A DNA stretch of 64,000 bases from Gammaproteobacteria bacterium (lineage in GTDB: Bacteria; Pseudomonadota; Gammaproteobacteria; Pseudomonadales; Azotimanducaceae): positions 89,561 through 153,560 of the forward strand of contig VXYL01000054.1 of the NCBI GenBank assembly GCA_009846005.1. The letters run 5' to 3'. Positions 45,827 to 64,000 of the stretch are shown here, piece by piece; the stretch's first letter is position 1; each line of letters starts with the position of its first letter. The notes below the pieces were generated by a model. The model saw only the letters and a list, made by a program, of their open reading frames with translations. It did not search any database and had not been told where the DNA came from. Made by a program: the position numbers and the translations under genes.

Positions 45827-46335
45827 CGACATAAATAGTTGTCTAACGTCCAGGATTCGTCCCGATCCGCCTCAGCAGGCGTTGACACTGGCGTACCCCC
45901 AAGTTCGTGCCGTAGGACTCGCGCAAGTGTGACGCAAGGAGTTTGCCGTTCCAGGTGTCTCCACTTAGTCCGAAAGCGCTCGGCGGAGCGTCTAAATCGT
46001 GTCTTAGCTCTGTCCGCTTGTGCGCGTCCAGGGATGGAGGCCGGCCCGGTCGGCTCGAATCCCGGAGACCCGGCAGGCCCTGATCCTCAAGGGTATTGGC
46101 CCACCGGCGCAACGTGCGCGGATCCTCGCCGAAGAGGTCGGCAACCTGTGTCGGGCCAAGTCCGCTGGCCATGAGCAGCAGGCCGTGCAAGCGGTGTTCG
46201 TAGCGGGATGCCGCAGACCGCCTAACCTCCCGCCGCAGCATGTCCCGCAGCTTCATGCGCACGTCATCATGGCGTTGTTGTCGTCTCTCGTCCACCAAAC
46301 TAGCGTAGCACAAAAAGGATCAACAATTTAAGTCG
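45827..46335. mobile_element. Internally deleted IS630-like element (509 bp) with imperfect terminal inverted repeats
   Basis: Left end CGACATAAATAGTTG (45827-45841) and right end CAACAATTTAAGTCG (46321-46335) are inverted repeats matching at 13 of 15 positions. Between them lies only the HTH half of an IS630-type transposase. A full element would be about 1.1 kb, so the catalytic half appears lost. The left end is preceded by a partial copy of its own tip (GCGACATAA at 45808 and 45826). Confidence 0.65.
45843..46295 (-). pseudogene. IS630-type transposase N-terminal HTH remnant
   Basis: The frame encodes about 150 aa matching the helix-turn-helix and winged-helix half of IS630-family transposases (MASGLGPTQVADLFGEDPRTLRRWANTLEDQGLPGLRDSSRPGRPP, then TWNGKLLASHLRESYGTNLGVRQCQRLLRRIG). 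The DDE catalytic domain that should follow is missing: the frame stops at a TAG lying against the left terminal repeat. The start is uncertain (GTG 46295, TTG 46313 or ATG 46256; none has a good ribosome site). It may still bind the element ends as a DNA-binding fragment, but no transposition activity is expected. Confidence 0.75.
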
Positions 46336-46616: not shown

Positions 46617-47612
46617 ATGACCAGCCCGGGTACGCACTCGACGCTCGTGAACGGAGCCTACGTCGCTGTGGCGACGGCTGTCGTGTGTTTGTCGGTAGTG
46701 GGTCCCATGCTGGCCGCTGACAACGGGTCTGAACCCATCAAACCGATTCCGACGAACGGTCAATACGACGCCTCGAAGGTATCGCTCGGTCGGCTGCTGT
46801 TTCACGACCAACGACTGTCGAAGGACGACTCGGTGTCGTGCGCGAGCTGCCACGATCTGGCGTCGGGCGGCGACGATGGGCGCCGCGTGTCTTTCGGCGT
46901 CGATGATGCAGAGGGCACGATCAACGCGCCTACGGTGTTCAACGCCGGGTTCAACTTCAAGCAGTTCTGGGACGGCCGCGCCAACAGCTTGGAAGACCAG
47001 ATCGACGGTCCGGTGCAGTCGTCCGTCGAGATGGCAAGTCTCTGGCCGGATGTCGTCGCCAAGCTCTATCAGGAGGACACCTACCCGGCTCTTTTCGATG
47101 CGATCTACCCCGACGGCATCAACCGTGCGAACGTCAAGAACGCGTTGGCCGAGTTCATGCGCTCGCTGAATACGCCAAATAGTCGCTTTGATCGTTGGCT
47201 CCACGGCGACGAAAGCGCGCTCAACGACGAGGAGGCGCGGGGCTACGGTCTGTTTAAGTATTACGGCTGCGTGTCCTGCCATCAGGGTGCCGCCGTCGGC
47301 GGAAACATGTTCCAGGTGTTCGGCGTGCTCAATGAGTACTTCAAGCGACGCGGCAACATCACCGAAGCCGACATGGGGCGGTACAACGTCACCGGCAACG
47401 AAGCGGATATGCACGCGTTCAAGGTTCCGAGTCTGCGCATGGCGGCCCATACCGCCCCTTACCTTCACGACGGCAGCGCCGCCACGCTGCGCGATGCTGT
47501 CGACATCATGTTCGAATTCCAGCTGGGCAGAGAGGCGCCCGACGAGGACAAGGACGCAATCGTCGCCTTCATCAAGACACTCGCTGGGGAGTGGGAGGAG
47601 CAATGGCAATAA
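46617..47612 (+). CDS. Di-heme cytochrome c peroxidase (CcpA/MauG family)
   Basis: A 331-aa periplasmic di-heme protein. A signal segment (AYVAVATAVVCLSVVGPMLAA) precedes two heme c sites, CASCH (about residue 75) and CVSCH (about residue 220). FHDQRLSKDDSVSCASCH, RNAPTVFN-like INAPTVFNAGFNFKQFWDGRA, and HAFKVPSLRMAAHTAPYLHDG are family signatures. It may reduce hydrogen peroxide or, as in MauG relatives, carry out other oxidations. The next gene overlaps by 10 bases and encodes a kinase-like sensor, so peroxide or redox sensing is an attractive inference. Confidence 0.92.
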   Translation: MTSPGTHSTLVNGAYVAVATAVVCLSVVGPMLAADNGSEPIKPIPTNGQYDASKVSLGRLLFHDQRLSKDDSVSCASCHDLASGGDDGRRVSFGVDDAEGTINAPTVFNAGFNFKQFWDGRANSLEDQIDGPVQSSVEMASLWPDVVAKLYQEDTYPALFDAIYPDGINRANVKNALAEFMRSLNTPNSRFDRWLHGDESALNDEEARGYGLFKYYGCVSCHQGAAVGGNMFQVFGVLNEYFKRRGNITEADMGRYNVTGNEADMHAFKVPSLRMAAHTAPYLHDGSAATLRDAVDIMFEFQLGREAPDEDKDAIVAFIKTLAGEWEEQWQ

Positions 47613-49201
47613 CCTCGAGATCGATATTGGTCGGCATCGCCTTTTCAGTGGTGATCGTCTCTGCGAGCGCGGTTCTTTACGCGATGGCGCAGCAGAACGA
47701 CCCGCAGCCCTATCGCGGTTCAATCGCTCAGGTTCGTCAGGTCCAGCAGCTGGCTGCGGAATGGAGCGTCGAGACGGCCCGGGTGCGGTCGGACCCGTTG
47801 GCGGACTACGACGCCTTGGTCGCCTTCATCCCGCAGATGGAGACGTTGAAGAGCGGGTTGCTGGATACGATCCGCGGGATAGCCGACGTTCCGGATCGTC
47901 TTGCCAACGATGTGAGCGCCTACGCGAGCGCGATCGACGCCAAGGAGGAGCGCATCGAGCGCTTCAAGACCGCGAATTCCGTGGTCCGAAACTCGACGCG
48001 CTACCTGCCGCTGGCGGCGGCCAACATCGTCCAGAATGCCGAAGCGGATACGGATCTTGCGCGGGAGGTGGGGACAACGGCGAATGAGATCAACGACTAC
48101 CTGGCCGCTCCCACCGACGCGGCAAAGGGTCGACTCACCGCCGTGGTCGAGCGACTGGGTCAACGAGCCGAACGCCTCCCCAACGGGCTCGCCAACGCGG
48201 TGACCAACTTCACCTCCCACGCAAGGGTACTGCTTGATCGGCAAGGCCCGATGGACGAGATCTTCGAGCAGGCGACGTCGAGCGACATCTCCAACATGTC
48301 GGCTCGATTGATCACCGATCTCGGCACCGAGCTTGGACGTGTCGAGCAACGCAGCACCTGGTTCATGAACGGAATGCTCGGGGCTGCGGCGGCGTTGCTG
48401 CTGGTTTGGATCGCTGTCGCCGTGCTGCGCAAACCCGATGCGACCAAGGTTGTCCACCCCTCTGCCGGTGCCCGGCGCGGTGCCGTGGTCGCGACCGCGG
48501 CGCAGACCGCATCGGTCAGCGAGCGCGACGCCGTGGTAGCCGAGAAGCTGTTGATGACGCAACGGATCCTCTCGGGAGCGATCGGCGAGCGCATCGCCGC
48601 GGCATCCAGCGGCTTGGCCGCAAGCGCCGACGCGTTGCCGATCGAGAATGGCGCCGCCGACGACATGCGCCGGCAGGCGCGAGAAATCGCCGCACTGGCG
48701 GAGCGTCTGTCGTCGGTCAGCAACAAACAGGACGTGAGCTACGACCTGCTCGACATAAACGACTGCATCCCCGACATCATCGAAACCACCGGTGCGGAGG
48801 GCGTTGCGACGGTAACGACTGAGTCGGCGGATGTGCCTGAGGTCTTCGCGTCAAAGACCGAAATCTGCCTGATGTTGGAGAAGATCCTCGAGAACTCGGT
48901 TCAGGCGATCCAGGAAAAGGACTTTGGTGACGGCGACAACAAGGGCGAGATCCGAATCACCACGGACGGCGACGACGAGAAGGCGACCGTGACCGTGTTC
49001 GACAACGGCCACGGGATGACTGCCGACGTGCGCGCGCGGATGTTCGAGCCGTTCTACACGTCGAAGGATGATCGCGATGGCGTCGGTCTAACCACGACCC
49101 GCCATTTGGTGGAGAAATACGGAGGCACGGTCTCGGTCAGTTCGCATGTGGGCGGGGGAACGGTCACCCGCATCGAGTTGCCCGGGATGGTGGCGCGATG
49201 A
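47603..49201 (+). CDS. DAHL-domain histidine kinase-like ATPase without a recognisable H-box
   Basis: A 532-aa membrane protein. An N-terminal helix is followed by a long alpha-helical periplasmic region resembling the DAHL sensor domain (QVQQLAAEWSVETARVRSDPLADYDALV). A second helix (NGMLGAAAALLLVWIAVAVL) precedes a C-terminal GHKL ATPase with N-box ILENSVQAIQEKD, G1 DNGHGM, FEPFYTSK and G2 GVGLTTTRHLVEKYGG. The dimerisation region (about 320-370) lacks the usual His-Glu phospho-acceptor, so direct autophosphorylation is doubtful. It overlaps the peroxidase gene by 10 bases, and the next start lies in its stop (ATGA). GGGAGG lies upstream of ATG 47603. Confidence 0.82.
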   Translation: MAITSRSILVGIAFSVVIVSASAVLYAMAQQNDPQPYRGSIAQVRQVQQLAAEWSVETARVRSDPLADYDALVAFIPQMETLKSGLLDTIRGIADVPDRLANDVSAYASAIDAKEERIERFKTANSVVRNSTRYLPLAAANIVQNAEADTDLAREVGTTANEINDYLAAPTDAAKGRLTAVVERLGQRAERLPNGLANAVTNFTSHARVLLDRQGPMDEIFEQATSSDISNMSARLITDLGTELGRVEQRSTWFMNGMLGAAAALLLVWIAVAVLRKPDATKVVHPSAGARRGAVVATAAQTASVSERDAVVAEKLLMTQRILSGAIGERIAAASSGLAASADALPIENGAADDMRRQAREIAALAERLSSVSNKQDVSYDLLDINDCIPDIIETTGAEGVATVTTESADVPEVFASKTEICLMLEKILENSVQAIQEKDFGDGDNKGEIRITTDGDDEKATVTVFDNGHGMTADVRARMFEPFYTSKDDRDGVGLTTTRHLVEKYGGTVSVSSHVGGGTVTRIELPGMVAR

Positions 49202-50385
49202 ACTCGCGCCTACAGGAGAGGCGTAAGCTCGGCGGGCTGCGATGGTATGTACCGCTGCTCCTGATTCCAATCCCGGTGTTGATTTCCCTCGGAATGCGCG
49301 TCCAGGGAGCGGATGATGCGCCGTCGTCGGCGGACGCGCCGTGTTCCGCTTCCGAGATCGTTCACCGCGCCGTCCTTCTGCTTGACCTCCGCAAACCGGT
49401 GGATGAAGCCCACGCGTCGTTGCCCGGTCGTCTGCTTGACGACGTAACCATCGACCTTTACGCCGACACGGAGCTGGCCGTGTATTCGGTAAGCCCCTTC
49501 GCCGAGGCACCGCGTACGTTGCTCGGCCGCCTTTGCAAGCCGTACGACAACGGCGAACTCCTGGTGCAAGCCGCCAAGCATCAGCGCAACACGATCGGGG
49601 ACTGCGGCGACTTACCGGCCCAGATTCCGGCGGCGAGTCGTGCGGACGCCCGGCAGTTCTGCGAGCAGCGCAATGTGCTGCGGCGACGGATAGATGCGCT
49701 CGTCGCGCAGAGCGAAGGAAGCACAGCAACGAACGCGTATCTGGTTGAAGCGCTCGAGGAGACGACGCGAGACTTCGCAGACTCGTCGGTACCCACGTCG
49801 CTTTACGTGTTCTCGGATATGATGCAGCACGCCAAATGGTATTCGCACGTCGATGTGCAGCCCGACGCGTGGGAGTTCGAGACCTTCGTTGCCGCTCGCG
49901 GATCCCAGGGACCGGGCATCGAACCCCTTGCCCGACCGTCGACCGATTTGCCGGTCAAGATCTTCTACGTCGCCCGTGCGGGCACGACGGACAACCCCGA
50001 ACTACGGCGCCGGCACCAGGGGTTTTGGCAAACCTATTTCGAGAATGCTGACTTGCACTTCGACGATCAGCCCACCATGGCCGGGTACGCATCCAAGACG
50101 CTGATGGATATTCCGACGCCCATGGAACTTGCGGCCTACGAACGCGAGCAGCTCCGCTACCAGAGCGAACTCGTTGAAAAGGAGCGTGCCGAACTCGAAC
50201 GTACGCGCGTTGAGTTCGAGCAGGAGCGTGCGGATTTCGCGGAGCGCCAGGAACAGCTCGCGCAGTTGCAGCGTCGACTCGCCGAGGAACAGCGCGAACT
50301 CGCCGCAAAGCGACGCGAAGTCGAAGCGCAGGACCAGCTGAGCGAGACCCGCCGAGTTGGCGAGACTACCGACCAAGATGCTTGA
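49198..50385 (+). CDS. Membrane-anchored vWA-like protein with C-terminal coiled coil
   Basis: A 395-aa protein with a membrane helix (WYVPLLLIPIPVLISLGM) near the N-terminus. The middle resembles a vWA-like fold without a metal-site DxSxS (HRAVLLLDLRKPVDE, LYADTELAVYSVSPFAEAP, and later TSLYVFSDMMQHAKWYS). Residues about 300-375 are a highly charged coiled coil (EREQLRYQSELVEKERAELERTR). No family name can be given with confidence. The start overlaps the stop of the kinase-like gene (ATGA), so it is a stoichiometric partner in that operon. A scaffold or signal-transmitting role is inference. Confidence 0.72.
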   Translation: MNSRLQERRKLGGLRWYVPLLLIPIPVLISLGMRVQGADDAPSSADAPCSASEIVHRAVLLLDLRKPVDEAHASLPGRLLDDVTIDLYADTELAVYSVSPFAEAPRTLLGRLCKPYDNGELLVQAAKHQRNTIGDCGDLPAQIPAASRADARQFCEQRNVLRRRIDALVAQSEGSTATNAYLVEALEETTRDFADSSVPTSLYVFSDMMQHAKWYSHVDVQPDAWEFETFVAARGSQGPGIEPLARPSTDLPVKIFYVARAGTTDNPELRRRHQGFWQTYFENADLHFDDQPTMAGYASKTLMDIPTPMELAAYEREQLRYQSELVEKERAELERTRVEFEQERADFAERQEQLAQLQRRLAEEQRELAAKRREVEAQDQLSETRRVGETTDQDA

Positions 50386-50426
50386 AAACCGTGGTGAAGT
50401 CAGTTGTGCGGAAGCCGCGGCTGAAC

Positions 50427-50457
50427 CGGTTGGCGAATCGCTGACCAACGCCAACCG
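50427..50457. promoter_or_regulatory. 9-bp perfect hairpin between operon genes
   Basis: CGGTTGGCG (50427-50435) pairs exactly with CGCCAACCG (50449-50457) across a 13-base loop. No T-run follows, so a factor-independent terminator is unlikely. It may separate the helical-repeat gene from the upstream operon or serve as an operator. Confidence 0.5.
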
Positions 50458-50559
50458 ATTTGCCTGCGTACTGACAACGTGTGTAAGGACGAGAAGAACG
50501 CAACGATGATGTTAACAACGACGCCGTTTCGATCCGGTTCATTGGATTCCAAGAACAGC

Positions 50560-51546
50560 ATGCGCCTTACCCTCCGCTCACGAGTCGTGGTGACCGTGTT
50601 CGCGTTCTGCGTCGTGCTTGTCGGCACACCCGGCAATGCGGTGGAGGGAAGGAGTTGGGTGGAGATAATCACCGACTGGTTCGACGACGAGGACGTCGGG
50701 GCGACCCCCCGCCTCCTGTTCCGCGCAACCGAGAATCTCATTGCCGAGATCCGCATCCTGCGGGAGGAACTGGGGGTCGACGACTTTCAGGCCCAAGCGG
50801 GAACCGAAGAGTACCGCACCCCGGTTCACGTCTACGCCAAGACGCTGGAGGTGATGTCGAAGGTCTCCCGTGTGCAAAGGCGTCTCGGCATCGATGCTGT
50901 CGAAGTCGGTCATGTTCCCATCAAGAACGTCGGACCTAGAGATGTCTTGGACAACTTGGCGGCGATCTTGGCCGAGTTGCGCAAGATCAAGGCTCGGTGG
51001 GTCATCGAGCGTTCCATCGACGCGGCACCGTTCGTAGGCGGCATCACGCCGTCGACGCCGTCGATGATCTACAAGAATCTCGCCCATGCGTCTTTCCTGC
51101 TTGACGGCCTGGTCGGACGACCGCTTGCGCCGAACGACGTTTACGTGAACGCGCGGTGCCTTCTCGACGAGTTGGCGCTCATCGCGGCCAGGCTGGGTGC
51201 CCCTTTCACATTGGATGTTCCAAGTGTCGAAGGGAGAAAGTCACTCGAGGATGTCGCCCAGGTGGTTCGGCGGGCGAGTTACGAGATGGTCAACCTGCAA
51301 ACCCGACTAGGCATGGACGTGTCGAACGTGCCGAACCCGACGTTGGTTCGTTCAGACCCCTCCGAGGTCTACGACGCGACGAACATGCTGCTAGCGGAAA
51401 TGGGGCGGATCAAGCACCACTTGAATATCCACGCTACGCACCCGGTGCGACCGGAACCTCACGACAAGGTACCAACCGACGTATTCGCCCAGATTCTGCT
51501 CGTCATCGAGAACCTGAACACCATTTCGCGCTCGGCGAATTCGTAG
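50560..51546 (+). CDS. Exported helical-repeat protein of unknown function
   Basis: A 328-aa protein from ATG 50560 (in-frame starts at 50479 and 50506 lack the clear leader). A signal peptide (RSRVVVTVFAFCVVLVGTPGNAVEG) is followed by about seven diverged repeats. Each begins with a short Pro-x-x-Val/Leu turn and continues into an amphipathic helix ending in Leu-Gly-Val/Ile: TPRLLFRATENLIAEIRILREELGV, TPVHVYAKTLEVMSKVSRVQRRLGI, DPSEVYDATNMLLAEMGRIKHHLNI, VPTDVFAQILLVIENLNTI. No enzymatic motif is present. It looks like a periplasmic scaffold or binding protein. Unknown family; position suggests a role with the preceding kinase-like operon. Confidence 0.7.
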   Translation: MRLTLRSRVVVTVFAFCVVLVGTPGNAVEGRSWVEIITDWFDDEDVGATPRLLFRATENLIAEIRILREELGVDDFQAQAGTEEYRTPVHVYAKTLEVMSKVSRVQRRLGIDAVEVGHVPIKNVGPRDVLDNLAAILAELRKIKARWVIERSIDAAPFVGGITPSTPSMIYKNLAHASFLLDGLVGRPLAPNDVYVNARCLLDELALIAARLGAPFTLDVPSVEGRKSLEDVAQVVRRASYEMVNLQTRLGMDVSNVPNPTLVRSDPSEVYDATNMLLAEMGRIKHHLNIHATHPVRPEPHDKVPTDVFAQILLVIENLNTISRSANS

Positions 51547-51807: not shown

Positions 51808-54624
51808 ATGCAAGACGACACCGCTGGCCGAACTCGGTTTCCCGTGAGCAGTACATTCAATTTGCCGCGCGCTGACATTCAACAGATCTCTCGCCATCGG
51901 CGAGTCGAACACGATCCTAGCCGGCACCCGCCCTTGCTTGTGCGGCAGAAGGTCATGCTGCCCGACCCCGTCGACGGGTTCGTCGAGCGTTTCCCGCTCG
52001 AATCGCGCTGCGACCTCACGAAGTGGCGTGTAACGGCGCTCAACGCCCCGGGCGGGTTTGGCAAGACCACGTTGCTTGCCGAGGCTTGCCGCCGATTGCT
52101 GCGGCGCGGCCATGTGGTCGCGTGGCTGACCGTTGACGAGGACGACGGGCCCAACGGCCTCGCGACATACCTTTCGCTGGCGCTCGCGGAAGCGGGTGTC
52201 GAGATACTGGATTCGCGTCTGACGAGCCAGGATCTGCAACGCAGCGACTACCGAATCAACCTGCTTTTGCACAGTATCGAGATGCTGGGCGAGCGTTGCG
52301 TGCTTGCGCTCGACGATGTCCACCGGCTACGCAATCCCGAGACGATGGCGGTGCTCAACCGGCTCCTGCAGCACGCCCCGCCGAATCTCCACGTCGCCTT
52401 GGCGTTCAGGGGAATGCCTGCAGGTCTCGACGTGGCGACGGCCATCCTTCAGGGGCGGGGCATCAGCATCACGGCGGAGGAACTGCGTTTCGAGAAACCG
52501 GACATCGCGCGCTTCTTCGGGGCCAAGTTGTCCCGTGCCGAACTTTCCGATCTGACCGAGACGTCCCAGGGGTGGCCCATCGCGCTTTGCATCCACCGCA
52601 ACGTCAGAGATCAGCGTGCATCCCACGAATTGGCCCAAGAGATCACCTCGAATTGGATCGAGACACGGCTTTGGGGCGGATTGTCGAAGGAGGACCAGCA
52701 GTTCGTTCTGGATATCGGCTTGTTCGAGTGGATCGATCCGGAACTGGTCGACGCCGCACTTGGTGCCGGCTCCGCGCAACGCGTCCGATCGATCCCCGCG
52801 CTCGCCGGACTGCTGCGGTCCGTAGGCGGTGAGTCCGGATCCCTTTCGCTGCATCCCCTGATCAGGCAATACTGTGCGGCCAAGCGGCTCCGGGAAACCC
52901 CGGATCGCTACCGATCAATCCACGCGGCCATCGCCGATGGACTGGCGTCGCAAGGCCAAGTGCTAGCGGGAATGCGCCACGCGACGGAGGCGGGAGACCC
53001 GCGACAGGTCGGCCAGATCCTCATCGACGCCGGCGGATTCCGTGTCTGGCTGAGGCATGGACTGACTCGTCTGCGCCTTTCGAACGAGCTTCTGACCACC
53101 GAGGTGCTGGCGCTTTTCCCGCGCCTGGTTCTGGTGCGCTGCATGGAACTGACCATGCGTGGAGATTTCGAGGCGGCCATGTCGGCCTACTTCGACCTCG
53201 GTGCCCGCACGGAAGGGTTCACCCGGAACTGGGACGGCAGCGACGACCCGGATCTGTCGCTGGACCACCTGTGTTTCCGATGGGTGCTGGCAACCTGCGG
53301 TTGCTGGCCGATCAACACGCCGGATCATCGGGAGTTGCTGTCAGAAGTCCGCAGCCTAGCGGACAGCCGGGATGTCGGCCCCCTAGAGCGGGGCGCGGGG
53401 ATGTACGCGACCGGCAACGCGGCGAGTCACCAGGCGCGTTTCGACCAGGCGCTTGATTGGTTGCGACGTGCCCGAGCTGAGTTGGCCGGCGGTTCTTGGT
53501 ACTTGACGATGTACGTCGACCTGCAGTTGGGCAACATTGCCATGGTCCAAGGCCGTGTCGCCGAGGCGCGGGAAACCTATGCGAGAGCGCAACGCGCCGC
53601 CAAGGCAGACTTCTTCGAGGACGCGGGCCCTTCGGTGATTGCCGAGGTGCTCATGACGGAACTCAGTCTCGAGCGGAACAAGCCCGCCCCTCTTGCGCGA
53701 CGTTCGCACAAGGTGCCACTGCTCGCGAAGAGCGGGGCATGGTTGACCATCTATCTGCCCGCTTGCGAAGCCGCCATGGAACTCGTGAAGCAGGAGGACG
53801 GGCCCGACGAAGCCTTGCGCCAGCTCGATGAGCTCATCAACTTCGCCCGGACGACCTCGCTCGCCACGCTGGTGCGATGCTTGGCGGCCATGCGTGTGTC
53901 GCTGCTAGTCGCCGCCGGACGCGAGACCGAGGCGCAGCGCGTTTGGACGCGCGCCGGCTTCCCCTCCGAGGCGTCGGAAATCGTGGACGTCGACAACCAG
54001 ACCTGGCGCGAAATGGAGGCCATCTCCTGTGCCGGCGTTCGCCTCCTGACGGCCCAATCCCGACTCCACGATGCGCGCCGCCTCGCCGAGGCGCTGCTCG
54101 GAATCTCGCGGAAACGGCGTTTGCGGCGAACCGAGATGCGCGGCCTGGCGTTGGCGATGGTCCTTGAACAACGAGCCGGGAATGCTGCGGATGCGCGAAG
54201 GCACCTGCTGGACTACCTGCACATCTATGCCGAGACCGACTACGTCAGAGCGTTAATCGCCGATCGCCAAGTTGTGCTGGGCCTCTTGGACAGCTTGGCG
54301 AGTACTGAACTCGACGAGGAGGTTGGGATTCTGGCCGAAGCGGTACGCCGCGTGCTCGCCAACGAACCCAGCGAACGTACCACTGACGCGGCGCCGGTGC
54401 TGACGCCGCGCGAGTGCGACATCCTGCAGCGACTCGACACTTGCCGGGACAAGGAGATCGCCAGCGCCCTCGACCTAAGTGAGGACGGCGTGCGCTATCA
54501 CAACAAGAAGATCTTCAAGAAGCTCGGGGTGCGCAGCCGCTTGGAAGCTACCCAACGTGCCCGTTCGATGGGCATCCTGCCCATGGTGGGTGTCCCGGCC
54601 GGGGAGCCATCGACCGGCGCCTGA
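51808..54624 (+). CDS. MalT-like STAND ATPase / LuxR-type transcription regulator, copy 1
   Basis: A 938-aa regulator of the MalT/LAL type. An N-terminal NTPase has Walker A APGGFGKTT (residues 80-88) and Walker B CVLALDDV. Helical TPR-like repeats run from about 400 to 830. The C-terminal HTH is LuxR-type: LTPRECDILQRLDTCRDKEIASALDLSEDGVRYHNKKIFKKLGVRSRLEA. Such proteins typically switch state on ligand-dependent nucleotide binding and then activate promoters. No ligand can be named. It is the tandem paralog of the next gene, with the same order of domains and colinear similarity throughout. Confidence 0.9.
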   Translation: MQDDTAGRTRFPVSSTFNLPRADIQQISRHRRVEHDPSRHPPLLVRQKVMLPDPVDGFVERFPLESRCDLTKWRVTALNAPGGFGKTTLLAEACRRLLRRGHVVAWLTVDEDDGPNGLATYLSLALAEAGVEILDSRLTSQDLQRSDYRINLLLHSIEMLGERCVLALDDVHRLRNPETMAVLNRLLQHAPPNLHVALAFRGMPAGLDVATAILQGRGISITAEELRFEKPDIARFFGAKLSRAELSDLTETSQGWPIALCIHRNVRDQRASHELAQEITSNWIETRLWGGLSKEDQQFVLDIGLFEWIDPELVDAALGAGSAQRVRSIPALAGLLRSVGGESGSLSLHPLIRQYCAAKRLRETPDRYRSIHAAIADGLASQGQVLAGMRHATEAGDPRQVGQILIDAGGFRVWLRHGLTRLRLSNELLTTEVLALFPRLVLVRCMELTMRGDFEAAMSAYFDLGARTEGFTRNWDGSDDPDLSLDHLCFRWVLATCGCWPINTPDHRELLSEVRSLADSRDVGPLERGAGMYATGNAASHQARFDQALDWLRRARAELAGGSWYLTMYVDLQLGNIAMVQGRVAEARETYARAQRAAKADFFEDAGPSVIAEVLMTELSLERNKPAPLARRSHKVPLLAKSGAWLTIYLPACEAAMELVKQEDGPDEALRQLDELINFARTTSLATLVRCLAAMRVSLLVAAGRETEAQRVWTRAGFPSEASEIVDVDNQTWREMEAISCAGVRLLTAQSRLHDARRLAEALLGISRKRRLRRTEMRGLALAMVLEQRAGNAADARRHLLDYLHIYAETDYVRALIADRQVVLGLLDSLASTELDEEVGILAEAVRRVLANEPSERTTDAAPVLTPRECDILQRLDTCRDKEIASALDLSEDGVRYHNKKIFKKLGVRSRLEATQRARSMGILPMVGVPAGEPSTGA

Positions 54625-54732: not shown

Positions 54733-57573
54733 ATGCCGAAAGGCATGCCCACCGGCACTGGCAGTCACGGGTCGGACGGGGTGACGGTTTCGTTAGTATG
54801 GACGTGTCGGTTGGGGAACACGGTGCAAGTCGCTCGAACCCGCTCGGCGCGGGGAGCGCGCCAGAGCGCGGGTGCCGGTCGCATCCACGCCGATCGACCG
54901 TGGCTGCTTCGCCGGAAGGTCATGCTTCCGGATCCGGTCGACGGATTCGTCAACCGGGCCGAGTTGGCGTCGCGATGCGACCTCCAGCAACAGCGACTGA
55001 CCGTCATCAAGGCACCTGGCGGGTTCGGGAAAACCACGCTCCTCGCTGACGCCTGCCACCGCCTGCGCGCCGCGCGCGACGTGGCGGCTTGGCTCACGGT
55101 CGACGAGGAAGACGATGCGGCGGCACTGGCGACGTATCTGCCCTTCGCCTTTGCCGAGGCCGGCCTCGACATCCTCGACTCGCGCGTGACCAGCCACGAC
55201 TTCGAGCGCGGCGACTACCGGATCAACCTGCTCCTGCATAGCATCGAAGTCCGCGCGTTCCGCTGCGTGTTGGCCATCGACGATGTAGACCGCCTGCGAA
55301 GTCCCGAGTCCTTAAACGTAGTCGATCAGCTCCTCCACCGCGGCCCGCCGAACCTGCACATCGCCATGACGTGTCGGGAACTGCCGCCGTTGCTCGATGT
55401 GGCGTCGCTGCTCCTTGACCGACGCGGGGTGGTGGTCTCGGACGAGGATCTGCGTTTCAAGAAACGCGAGATTGCACGTTTTTTCGACACGAAGCTGTCG
55501 AGGCGCGAACTCGACGAGCTGAATGAAGGCTCGCAGGGTTGGCCCATCGCACTATGCATCCACCGCGATGTGCGTGCCGGCGGCGGCCCCGTGGACATGA
55601 TGCAGGGCATCGCCTCGAATTGGATCGAGGCGCGGCTTTGGCGCGGCTTGGCCAGGGAAGAACAGGATCTCGTGCTCGATGTCGGGCTGTTCGAATGGAT
55701 CGATGGCGATCTTGTCGATGAGGTACTCGGTGCCGGTTCGACGCGTCGGATACAGGCGATTCCGGCGCTGTCGGGTCTGCTGCGGACGGCTGGCGGGTCC
55801 AAGGATGTGCTGACCCTGCAGCCACTCATCCGTCAATACTGTGCGGCCAAACGATCCCGGGAATCGCCGGAACGCTACCGAACGATTCATCGATCGATCG
55901 CCGATGCCCTTGCGCGCCGGGGCCGGGTTGTACCGGCAATGCGGCACGCGAGGGAGGCTGGGGATCTCCATCGGGTTGGCGAGATCCTCGAAGCGGCGGG
56001 TGGGCCGCGTTTTTGGCTGCGGCGCGGCATGGTCACGATGGCGGCGGCCAACGAACTCTTGACGAACGACATGCTCGAAGGGTTCCCGCGCCTCCAACTG
56101 CTACGCTGCATTTTGATGGTCTGGTCAGGAGAGCTCGTTGAGGCCAGAGCCACCTACGACGACCTGAACGCACGAACCGACGGTTTCACGCGGGACCGGG
56201 AGGGGGGCGACAACCGGGAACTCTACCTAGACAACGTGACCTACCGGTATCTGCTGTTGTCCTGCGGCTGCCAGCCCATTGGCACGCCTGAGGCGAGCGC
56301 ATTGGTTTCGGATATCAACGAGATGGCGGACCACCCGGATGTCGAACCCTTCGCGAAGGCCGTGGCGGAGTACGCCATGGGAGAGATCGAGACCACGCGG
56401 GGCAACTTCGAGGACGCCCTGCGCTGGACGACCCAGTCGCGTACGGTGATGGTGCGGCGATCCCGGTACATGGCCATGGTCGCGGACTTCCAGCTCGGCA
56501 TCATGGCCATGGTGCAGGGTCGCGTTGCCGACGCGGCGAAGGCATACAGCCGTTCCCAAAGAGCCTCGAAGAGCGATTTCCTGCAGGATGCGGGTCCCGC
56601 GGTCGTGGCCGAGGTGCTCGCCACCGAGTTGAACCTCGAGCGGAACCGAACGGCATCGCTTGCGCGTCGGTCCCACACCATGCCGACCCTGCTTGCCGCG
56701 AGCGGCGGCTGGCTGGATGTCTACATGGCGTCATCGGAAGTCGCCGTGGCGCTTGCGATCCGCGAGGGTGGGCCGGACGCGGCATTGGACGAACTCCAAG
56801 AGATGGTGTCGTTCGCCGCACGGACCGAACGACAGACATTGACGCGCGCGCTTGCGGGGATTCGCATATCGTTGCTGGTGACCGCCGGTCGCACCGAGGA
56901 AGCGCAGCGGCTTTGGGCCGACGCGAACCTGCCGCAAGGCACGGCGGCGGTCGTCGATCTCGAAACCCAGACTTGGCGCGAAATGGAGTCCATTGGATGC
57001 GCGGCTCTGCGTTTGCTCACGGCGGGCGAGGAGTTCGGCGCGGCGCGGGAATGCGCGGACGCGATGCTTGCGGCCTGTGCCGAAAGAGGGTTGAGGCGAT
57101 CACTGATGCGTTGCCGGGCGTTGGCGATGGTTCTCGAACACAGGGCCGGAAACCCGAACGCGGCCATCGCCCACCTTTCCGAGTACTTGAGGCTCTTCGC
57201 GGAGACGGACTATGCAAGGCCGATGGTTCAAGAACGGGAAGTCGGCCTCGCGGTTCTCGAAGATCTCGGTGAGGCACCCGGCGAAGCGGGTCTGCGCGAC
57301 GCCGCGGTAGCGCTCACGGCCATCCTCCAGGAACGGCCTCCCGTCCAAAGCGCGGTAGCCGTCCCGGCGTTGACGACGCGGGAACAGGAGATTCTCGAAC
57401 GTCTCGAGCATTGGCGCGACAAGGAGATTGCCGTCGCGCTCGACTTGAGCCAGGACGGGGTTCGCTACCACGTCAAGAAGATCTACCGGAAACTGGGCGT
57501 TCGCAGTCGGTTCGAGGCAACCCGTCGTGCCCGCGCCGAGGGTATCCTTACCGTATCGAGCGATGACCGCTAG
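54733..57573 (+). CDS. MalT-like STAND ATPase / LuxR-type transcription regulator, copy 2
   Basis: Up to 946 aa, closely paralogous to the preceding gene. Shared landmarks include KVMLPDPVDGFV, APGGFGKTTLL (Walker A), CVLAIDDVDRL (Walker B), QGWPIALCIHR, PLIRQYCAAKR and the LuxR HTH (REQEILERLEHWRDKEIAVALDLSQDGVRYHVKKIYRKLGVRSR). The N-terminal 30 residues are unlike copy 1 and may not be translated; GTG 54823, preceded by GGGGAA, is a plausible true start. Tandem duplication followed by divergence suggests two related signals or an interplay between the copies. Confidence 0.9.
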   Translation: MPKGMPTGTGSHGSDGVTVSLVWTCRLGNTVQVARTRSARGARQSAGAGRIHADRPWLLRRKVMLPDPVDGFVNRAELASRCDLQQQRLTVIKAPGGFGKTTLLADACHRLRAARDVAAWLTVDEEDDAAALATYLPFAFAEAGLDILDSRVTSHDFERGDYRINLLLHSIEVRAFRCVLAIDDVDRLRSPESLNVVDQLLHRGPPNLHIAMTCRELPPLLDVASLLLDRRGVVVSDEDLRFKKREIARFFDTKLSRRELDELNEGSQGWPIALCIHRDVRAGGGPVDMMQGIASNWIEARLWRGLAREEQDLVLDVGLFEWIDGDLVDEVLGAGSTRRIQAIPALSGLLRTAGGSKDVLTLQPLIRQYCAAKRSRESPERYRTIHRSIADALARRGRVVPAMRHAREAGDLHRVGEILEAAGGPRFWLRRGMVTMAAANELLTNDMLEGFPRLQLLRCILMVWSGELVEARATYDDLNARTDGFTRDREGGDNRELYLDNVTYRYLLLSCGCQPIGTPEASALVSDINEMADHPDVEPFAKAVAEYAMGEIETTRGNFEDALRWTTQSRTVMVRRSRYMAMVADFQLGIMAMVQGRVADAAKAYSRSQRASKSDFLQDAGPAVVAEVLATELNLERNRTASLARRSHTMPTLLAASGGWLDVYMASSEVAVALAIREGGPDAALDELQEMVSFAARTERQTLTRALAGIRISLLVTAGRTEEAQRLWADANLPQGTAAVVDLETQTWREMESIGCAALRLLTAGEEFGAARECADAMLAACAERGLRRSLMRCRALAMVLEHRAGNPNAAIAHLSEYLRLFAETDYARPMVQEREVGLAVLEDLGEAPGEAGLRDAAVALTAILQERPPVQSAVAVPALTTREQEILERLEHWRDKEIAVALDLSQDGVRYHVKKIYRKLGVRSRFEATRRARAEGILTVSSDDR

Positions 57574-58419: not shown

Positions 58420-59718
58420 ATGAACATCTGTGCCAGCCGGCGTTTCTCACGCCGGGCCGCCTTCGCTCTGATCGCCATCCTCTGCGCTCGCGCAGGGTAC
58501 GCGGAGGGTGCCGATTCCGGCGATAGCGGCTGGGTGATGATGTCGACGGCCTTGGTGCTATTCATGACCTTGCCCGGGCTGTCGTTGTTCTACGGCGGAA
58601 TGGTCCGGTCGGTCAGTGTTCTGTCGGTACTGATGCAGTGTTTGGCGATCGCCTGCCTTGTGACGATCCTGTGGCTCGTGGTGGGCTACAGCCTGGCATT
58701 CGGCGAAGGCAACCTGATAATCGGGGACCTCAGCAAGGTCCTGTTCCGGGGAATCTCGGAAGACACCTTGTACGGCTCGGTGCCGGAGATGAGCTTCGCG
58801 CTGTTCCAGCTCGGCTTTGCCATCATCACGCCGGCGCTCATCGTCGGCGGGTTCGCGGAACGGATGCGCTTCTCCTCGGTGCTGGTGTTCTCGGGCCTGT
58901 GGGTACTCCTGGTCTACGCGCCCATTGCGCACTGGGTGTGGGGCGGCGGCTGGCTTGCCGAGCTCGGTGCCATGGACTTCGCGGGCGGCACGGCAGTGCA
59001 CATCGCCGCCGGCACGGCGGCGGTGGTGGCCGCCGTCGTGGTGGGTCCCCGACGCGGCTTTCCGGACCAGGTCCAGCCACCCCACAACATGACGCTGACC
59101 GTGGCCGGTGCCGGCATGCTCTGGGTGGGATGGTTCGGCTTCAACGGCGGCAGCGCGCTGGCGGCTGGGGGGGACGCCGCCATGGCCGTGGCCGTCACCC
59201 ACATCGCCGCGGCCGCGGGGGCGTTCACCTGGATGCTGATCGAGTGGGTGCGCTACGGCAAGCCGAGCGCTCTTGGCACCGTGACCGGCATGGTTGCCGG
59301 GTTGGGAACCGTCACCGCCGCCTCGGGCTACATCGGGCCGGCCGGCGCGCTGGTCGTCGGCATCATTGCCGGGGCGGTCTGCTTCGTGGCCACCAACGTG
59401 ATGAATCTCAAGTTGAAGATCGACGACTCGCTGGACGTGTTCCCGGTCCACGCCGTGGGCGGCTGCATTGGGATGATGCTCACCGCCGTGTTCGCGAGCG
59501 ACGCCATCGGCATTCTAAGCGGCTCGGAGGATATCGCCATCGGCGAGCAGTTGCGCATCCAGGGTCTCGCCGTCATCGCCGTGCTGGCCTATACGGCTGC
59601 GGCAACGTGGATCATCCTCAAGATCACCGATCTCCTGATCGGCAACCGCGTCCCGGAGGACCAGGAGATCGACGGACTCGACATCGCCGAGCACAACGAA
59701 CGGGGCTACATTATCTGA
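58420..59718 (+). CDS. amt: Ammonium transporter Amt
   Basis: A 432-aa Amt/Mep channel with a signal segment and about eleven membrane helices. It transports ammonium across the inner membrane. The twin pore histidines are visible in DFAGGTAVHIAAG and DVFPVHAVGG, and the entry motif LFYGGMVR and FAERMRFSS are typical. The C-terminal tail is short (EDQEIDGLDIAEHNERGYII), with the conserved interaction site for GlnK-type regulators less clear. ATG 58420 starts the signal; the ORF opens at 58321 in non-coding DNA. No glnK gene is adjacent in this window, unlike the usual pairing. A structured element lies upstream. Confidence 0.93.
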   Translation: MNICASRRFSRRAAFALIAILCARAGYAEGADSGDSGWVMMSTALVLFMTLPGLSLFYGGMVRSVSVLSVLMQCLAIACLVTILWLVVGYSLAFGEGNLIIGDLSKVLFRGISEDTLYGSVPEMSFALFQLGFAIITPALIVGGFAERMRFSSVLVFSGLWVLLVYAPIAHWVWGGGWLAELGAMDFAGGTAVHIAAGTAAVVAAVVVGPRRGFPDQVQPPHNMTLTVAGAGMLWVGWFGFNGGSALAAGGDAAMAVAVTHIAAAAGAFTWMLIEWVRYGKPSALGTVTGMVAGLGTVTAASGYIGPAGALVVGIIAGAVCFVATNVMNLKLKIDDSLDVFPVHAVGGCIGMMLTAVFASDAIGILSGSEDIAIGEQLRIQGLAVIAVLAYTAAATWIILKITDLLIGNRVPEDQEIDGLDIAEHNERGYII

Positions 59719-63677: not shown

Positions 63678-64000
63678 ATGATTAGAGCAAAGGCATTCGC
63701 CGTCCGGGACGCTATGCGGCGCGTAGTAACCCGCGCCAGAGCGTTTATTGTTGTCAAACGGGCCGTGTCAACAGTCGAGTACGCGTTGATCGTGGTCGCC
63801 GTGGTCGCCGTCGTAGGGGCTGGCGCCGCGATGCTCGGCGGTGCGTTCGACGGCCTGTTCAAAACACTGGAAAGCGACATACAAGCCGCGAAAGCGGATG
63901 TCAAGACGCAAGGTGGCACCGGCGGGACGACCACCGGCGGGACGACCACCGGCGGGACGACCACCGGCGGGACGACCACCGGCGGGACGACCACCGGCGG
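63678..64000 (+). CDS. Flp/type IVb pilin-like protein with GGTTT repeat tail (3' end outside window)
   Basis: The ORF track omits it because it runs off the window. Residues 1-29 form a basic leader, then VSTVEYALIVVAVVAVVGAGAAM, with Glu-Tyr at positions five and six after the expected prepilin cleavage (A29/V30), as in Flp pilins. A short helix (FDGLFKTLESDIQAAKADVK) leads to a run of Gly-Gly-Thr-Thr-Thr repeats still in progress at the last base. A strong promoter and GGGAGG precede it. The leader is cleaved by a prepilin peptidase and the mature protein assembles in the inner membrane. The Thr-rich tail is unusual and could be glycosylated. Confidence 0.8.
   Translation, partial: MIRAKAFAVRDAMRRVVTRARAFIVVKRAVSTVEYALIVVAVVAVVGAGAAMLGGAFDGLFKTLESDIQAAKADVKTQGGTGGTTTGGTTTGGTTTGGTTTGGTTTG
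63921..64000 (+). repeat. 15-bp coding tandem repeat (GGCGGGACGACCACC)n
   Basis: Five complete, identical 15-base units from 63921 plus a partial sixth at the window edge. In frame with the pilin, each encodes Gly-Gly-Thr-Thr-Thr. Perfect identity suggests recent expansion, so length may vary between strains. Confidence 0.92.

Follow-up and report, generated by a model that had tools for sequence, protein, structure and literature searches.

A di-heme peroxidase paired with a DAHL-domain membrane sensor: a candidate periplasmic redox-sensing unit in an Azotimanducaceae genome and its relatives

A 64,000 nucleotide stretch from a Gammaproteobacteria bacterium of the family Azotimanducaceae (assembly GCA_009846005.1, contig VXYL01000054.1, positions 89,561 to 153,560; G000:C80:89561-153560 in the genome numbering used here), hereafter referred to as the window, carries four consecutive open reading frames on the plus strand, here designated A, B, C and D. 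A encodes a di-heme peroxidase, and B a membrane-anchored sensor whose periplasmic part is a DAHL domain. An initial annotation had proposed that the peroxidase generates or senses a signal which the membrane proteins transmit. The functional pairing of A and B contained in this proposal is well supported, but D does not belong to the core of the system, A does not fall on the MauG side of its superfamily and it is unsafe to take B for a functional kinase.

The A-B gene pair and the distribution of DAHL genes

A (46617..47612) and B (47603..49201) overlap by 10 bases, with B starting at the ATG at 47603, and B and C (49198..50385) overlap in an ATGA. D (50560..51546) follows in the same direction; a GTG at 50479 is a possible start for this gene, but the signal peptide starts at the ATG at 50560, which leaves a gap of 174 bases after C. 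Both overlaps and the fourth gene on the same strand had been described in the initial annotation and were found as described, and its placing of all four proteins in the periplasm or the membrane agrees with the hydropathy segments, of which there is one at the N-terminus of A, two in B (residues 1-30 and 252-278), one in C (11-38) and one in D (2-28). Because homologues of all four proteins exist (identities of 71-87% for A, 29-85% for B, 39-81% for C and 39-72% for D), A, B, C and D are considered real genes.

A Pfam DAHL search of 299 genomes of the phylum identified 69 matches in 49 genomes. A cytochrome c peroxidase (CCP) gene was found directly upstream of the DAHL gene in 30/30 loci of a first set and in 28 of the remaining 39, among which eight lacked such a gene and three were located at contig ends; in total, 58 of the 66 DAHL genes that could be resolved have a CCP gene immediately upstream, with 4 bases as the commonest overlap. 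As these genomes hold only about 1-6 CCP_MauG genes each, the probability of chance adjacency would be well below one per cent. By comparison, none of the seven other kinase loci in the genome of the window has a CCP gene nearby. The positive loci span eleven family codes of the phylum, with f72 and f80 over-represented. CCP-DAHL pairs were also found on a plasmid of Agrobacterium vitis F2/5 (WP_174113242.1 and WP_174113243.1, followed by a response regulator), in a plasmid record of Rhizobium sullae and, in another phylum, on a plasmid of the cyanobacterium Gloeocapsa sp. PCC 7428 (WP_015191243.1 and WP_015191242.1, with a 4-base overlap). The arrangement that had appeared unusual in the initial annotation is thus not specific to this genome; an upstream peroxidase is the rule for DAHL genes. 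No description of the CCP-DAHL pair was found in the open-access literature (subscription papers and preprints were outside this scope and prior notice is possible), where DAHL is named only as an alignment benchmark and no signal was found for PF19443. A network analysis of the CCP_MauG family does not mention kinases (PMC6405878).

The two partners also appear to have evolved together. Distances in the CCP and DAHL trees were correlated with a Spearman coefficient of 0.67, against a maximum of 0.26 among 999 full permutations. When the swapping of partners was restricted to copies from one and the same genome, the observed correlation was reached in 3 of 2000 trials. Since these within-genome swaps control for kinship, the two trees agree beyond the relatedness of the species. 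Few DAHL residues are fixed, namely D70, F121, K122, N130, S131, Y134, L135, P136 and H206 in the numbering of B. D70, N130, S131 and H206 are kept in 45-48 of 51 CCP-linked DAHL proteins and in 1-2 of seven unlinked ones, three of which are close relatives; N130, for example, is present in 48/51 proteins with and 1/7 without a CCP, and H206 in 45/51 and 1/7, respectively. Two relatives of B encoded without A (L079 and L080) have lost the DAHL motif as well. The loss of conserved residues in unpaired DAHL proteins is the strongest argument for direct cooperation between the DAHL domain and the peroxidase. Taken together, the neighborhood and tree data strongly support that A and B are a functional pair.

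DAHL genes without an adjacent peroxidase were identified at L163, L165, L166, L171, L148, L164, L173 and L177; those that could be checked are missing most of the conserved residues, except for L164, which keeps the residue set and comes from a genome in which no CCP match was found. By eye, the DAHL genes of L164 and L173 are located behind a precorrin-methyltransferase-like gene.

Properties of the peroxidase and of its sensor partner

A is predicted to be a secreted, periplasmic di-heme peroxidase (Pfam CCP_MauG, E 7e-57) with two CXXCH heme sites (C75-H79 and C218-H222). The distal-pocket residues W118, Q128 and E138 are kept, suggesting that A is probably an active peroxidase, and Met298 serves as ligand while V95 occupies the position of the distal His. 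In classical CCPs, a distal His blocks the peroxidatic heme until reductive activation (PMC10094543); A shares the two CXXCH motifs and the Met ligand with these reductively activated enzymes but is missing this residue. Although the initial annotation had labeled A as MauG-like, A scores 152.7 bits against the MauG model TIGR03791 (cut-off 443.85) and 166.9 bits against the MbnH model TIGR04039 (cut-off 362.85), and carries a Met where MauG and BthA have a Tyr heme ligand. An assignment to MauG or MbnH is therefore ruled out, and A is placed on the bacterial cytochrome c peroxidase side.

An IQ-TREE phylogeny covered 65 DAHL-linked CCPs and 50 others, with three PDB sequences included. A branch with 96/85 support set all 65 linked CCPs apart, and no unlinked member was found among them. 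When 20 unlinked genes were added, a single one (L292, from G343) fell inside the linked group, and this gene runs off the end of its contig. The linked peroxidases therefore make up a clade of their own, separate from the remaining CCPs that these genomes encode. The nearest relatives are 9qdt, a "probable cytochrome c peroxidase" and the closest solved relative, and two proteins of 478-486 amino acids, which, judging from their length, may be triheme enzymes like YhjA. A His at the distal position was found in 0/69 linked and 41/70 unlinked sequences, and the Met ligand of the electron-transfer heme (Met298) is kept in 69/69 linked sequences, A of the window being entered twice among the 69. 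The linked clade is not alone in lacking the distal His, as 9qdt is without it too; W143 and Q223, the latter directly after the second CXXCH, are near-fixed in the clade and rare outside. The CCP of Nitrosomonas europaea (1iqc) and the triheme YhjA of Escherichia coli share with A the two CXXCH hemes, a His/Met electron-transfer heme and the Trp/Gln/Glu pocket, but are separate in the tree from the linked clade, whose members all lack the distal His.

B consists of a transmembrane helix, a periplasmic DAHL domain (residues 33-254, 47699..48364), a second transmembrane helix, a degenerate DHp region and a HATPase_c domain (48863..49183). The call of a DAHL sensor made in the initial annotation was confirmed by a Pfam match (PF19443, E 3.5e-35) of 122.2 bits, above the curated cut-off of 38. 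HATPase_c was matched with an E-value of 4e-19, and its N, G1 and G2 box residues are kept (N431, D467-G469-G471 and G493-G495). No HisKA match was found in B at E 0.1. Alignments and a profile match to ZraS located the degenerate H-box region at approximately residues 315-335 (RILSGAIGERIAAASSGL, 48545..48607), where AERL of B is aligned with AHEI of ZraS, without the phosphoacceptor His. A canonical H-box is found in most other DAHL proteins. Throughout the subfamily of B, including members from Alphaproteobacteria, the ATP-binding residues are kept and the DHp region has no conserved His. As this His is absent in every subfamily homologue, a working histidine kinase should not be assumed, and B as a standard two-component kinase is ruled out. 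No response regulator was found beside B in the window or at the other loci with an A-B-C arrangement. Judging from these sequence features, B most likely acts as a pseudokinase that still binds nucleotides and directs a second protein, be it a partner kinase, C or the neighboring MalT-like regulators. DivL and RetS are members of the histidine-kinase superfamily that are likewise shaped like kinases and act through another kinase, and DivL also has no phosphoacceptor His; unlike B, they are not known to have a DAHL domain or a peroxidase partner.

With B, C and D as queries against related genomes, and with genes called around the matches, A, B and C were found to occur in this order in about ten loci (the window, G011, G010, G003 twice with one copy degraded, G021, G075, G164, G179 and G197); B and C without A were found in two genomes (L079 and L080). 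The window, G011 and G003:C44 are the sole places where D adjoins these three genes; elsewhere it is found with other genes, so that D is ruled out as a core member. A-B-C is therefore a conserved unit to which D is optional. Of the co-occurrence of four families that the initial annotation had named as its test, A-B-C holds in these loci and A-B far more widely, among the 58 of 66 DAHL genes described above, but D does not belong to it. In the G075 locus (L077:10102-11790, minus strand), B is broken by a stop codon and A and C are intact.

Proposed mechanism and rival explanations

Among 40 DAHL proteins scanned, 38 had a HATPase_c domain, 32 HisKA, 26 a receiver and 14 Hpt. At L174 (4634-5974, minus strand), one protein instead combines DAHL with a GGDEF diguanylate cyclase; a CCP gene immediately precedes its gene and a methyl-accepting chemotaxis protein gene lies downstream. 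Genes downstream of DAHL encode receiver-HD-GYP proteins (L138, L145, L187 and L188), a receiver-HDOD protein (L181) or plain receivers (L146). Because the upstream peroxidase is constant while the outputs vary, the peroxidase is most likely on the input side.

Five metagenome bins (L102 and L104-L107), labeled Immundisolibacterales, Defluviicoccus (two), Alphaproteobacteria and Gammaproteobacteria, carry A-B within Tad pilus gene clusters, and C is absent in all five. In these clusters, A-B comes after TadA, TadB and TadC on the same strand, with a CpaE-like gene as well in four of the five; a prepilin peptidase and CpaB/RcpC come after A-B in L104, L105 and L107. The prefixes RHO, IRC and COS of related bins are suggestive of a sponge host, which was not confirmed from PMC8163846. 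In the genome of the window, a Tad locus starts just beyond the right window edge, about 14 kb from C, and the distance is similar in G010. It is plausible that the Tad pilus is the target of the subfamily represented by the window.

Taking these observations into consideration, A and B may form one peroxidase-gated periplasmic redox sensor with a non-canonical output in this genome, a reading to which we assign a probability of roughly 0.6. The peroxidatic heme of A, a c-type enzyme, has no distal His and would be accessible to H2O2 with no need to be reduced first. A could dock on the helical DAHL domain of B through the conserved residues that are lost in unpaired DAHL proteins, and the catalytic or redox state of A might then shift the helices of DAHL and, by way of both transmembrane segments, the cytoplasmic domain of B, as assumed by analogy with other helical sensors. 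In most DAHL proteins, the signal would reach either an ordinary, often hybrid, histidine kinase, which in some cases has an HD-GYP response regulator after it, or a diguanylate cyclase. For the subfamily of B, a phosphotransfer-free output is conceivable, if speculative, with a partner kinase, the MalT-like regulators or C as its route, and in the related bacteria whose Tad genes enclose A-B, the output would probably act on the pilus. The binding of A to B, the response to peroxide, the direction of signaling and the output are what we infer from these patterns.

Several observations weigh against this reading. Tight pairing by itself is also compatible with B serving A. Eight DAHL genes have no adjacent CCP, and L164 retains the conserved residues nonetheless. 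Two families supply many of the genomes in the survey, which means that the counts are not independent, and A-B of the window is tied only loosely to its Tad locus at a distance of about 14 kb.

Three other explanations were considered. The peroxidase could be the effector, with the DAHL kinase as its local regulator and the shared operon as a simple peroxide-detoxification unit. The likely activity of A, given its W118/Q128/E138 pocket, and the translational coupling, which keeps both products together, would fit such a unit; control of transcription alone would not, however, predict that DAHL proteins without a peroxidase have mostly lost their periplasmic residue set. Moreover, the pair persists despite very different outputs and its peroxidases stand as a clade of their own beside the remaining CCPs in their genomes, and this explanation is regarded as unlikely. 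Still less probable is a small-molecule ligand of DAHL that the peroxidase makes or destroys, by analogy with the response of VirA-like kinases to host phenolics. In its favor, the best NCBIfam kinase match of B is a VirA-like model, under its cut-off, and a plasmid of Agrobacterium vitis has one of the pairs. Against it, the pair is carried by diverse bacteria and the co-evolution of the two trees is more easily explained by contact. Finally, a role of A as a MauG-like maturase that oxidizes residues of C or B to give the functional product appears very improbable. A shares its superfamily with MauG and C has conserved Cys and Trp residues, but A scores far under the MauG and MbnH cut-offs (152.7 vs 443.9 and 166.9 vs 362.9), has a Met rather than a Tyr ligand and occurs with B but without C in all five Tad-linked loci.

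Neighboring genes and significance of the pair

C encodes a protein with an N-terminal transmembrane helix, a putative vWA-like periplasmic domain and a C-terminal helix, and neither C nor D has a Pfam match. The AlphaFold model of C (pLDDT 84) shows a Rossmann-like domain and a long C-terminal helix of 85 residues. Leading PDB matches in Foldseek were mostly vWA/I domains (probability mostly >0.8, TMt up to 0.52), none with E <1e-3, and a sequence search of the PDB gave only weak matches, chiefly in the coiled-coil part. The DxSxS motif of the metal-ion-dependent adhesion site is absent in C, with D63-L-R65-K66-P67 in its place, and conserved Cys and Trp residues are seen in the alignments. 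The C family has many longer paralogues; those at L087:10158-12221, L089:9330-11177 and L085:2264-4144 have an extra C-terminal domain that is TonB_C-like by eye, and the gene next to the L087 paralogue encodes a kinase-PEGA-FGE protein. D is predicted to be a secreted, all-helical repeat protein; its AlphaFold model is all-helical, and the structure search gave no usable match (best E 1.0) and no known fold. The models support the earlier guesses of a helical D and, tentatively, of a vWA-like C. In relatives, D is found with a beta-barrel-like protein (Pfam Alginate_exp) or with an ammonium transporter and a further protein. An Alginate_exp gene follows the D homologues at L073:7023-8246 (minus strand), L088 and L091 and is missing from the window.

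Further downstream on the plus strand, two MalT-like STAND/LuxR regulators, E1 (51808..54624), a candidate output, and E2 (54733..57573), are encoded. Such regulators adjoin B-C in 6/7 loci of the same genus, including both loci without A. An ammonium transporter is encoded at 58420-59718 (plus strand), and its family also recurs near D homologues and Tad loci of relatives. The Tad locus of this genome (window positions 63700-64000 and L274, G000:C80:150000-167087) includes RcpC/CpaB, CpaE, TadA, TadB and TadC. Related genomes repeatedly have C paralogues, D homologues, MalT-like regulators and ammonium transporters in the vicinity of their Tad loci. Directly upstream of A, the minus strand carries a truncated IS630-type transposase (45843-46313; NCBIfam 70 bits, cut-off 100).

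Membrane sensors that combine a periplasmic input domain with a separately encoded periplasmic signal supplier are familiar from VirA-ChvE, LuxQ-LuxP and TorS-TorT. In these systems the partner is a solute-binding protein, whereas here it is a redox-active di-heme peroxidase, encoded directly upstream and translationally coupled. PrrB/RegB, which responds to electron flow via the cbb3 oxidase, and the yeast Orp1-Yap1 relay are likewise cases in which a respiratory or peroxidase protein hands redox information to a regulator, but their proteins are unrelated to A and B and they are not known to involve a conserved pair of heme peroxidase and sensor genes. A kinase with a periplasmic partner is thus of a known kind, and a heme peroxidase in the partner role is, as far as can be told, new. 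A broader reading, held tentatively and at somewhat less than even odds, is that an ancient, separate clade of c-type di-heme peroxidases present in at least two phyla is the sensory subunit of DAHL sensors, where it monitors peroxide or the supply of electrons in the periplasm and thereby controls kinases or diguanylate cyclases, and that in one lineage the pair was rebuilt around a pseudokinase for the control of Tad pili.

For the DAHL family (PF19443), the near-fixed pairing with one peroxidase clade provides a concrete input that can be tested, and the copies in Agrobacterium vitis and Gloeocapsa PCC 7428 make such tests accessible in cultured strains. The pairing would also assign a role to a large group of CCPs, about 40 of the approximately 150 CCP_MauG matches in a sample of 120 genomes, for which an annotation as detoxification enzymes would be expected otherwise. 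If the sensor reading is true, bacteria would have a new way of reading oxidants, in which a heme enzyme is the separable sensory part of a kinase.

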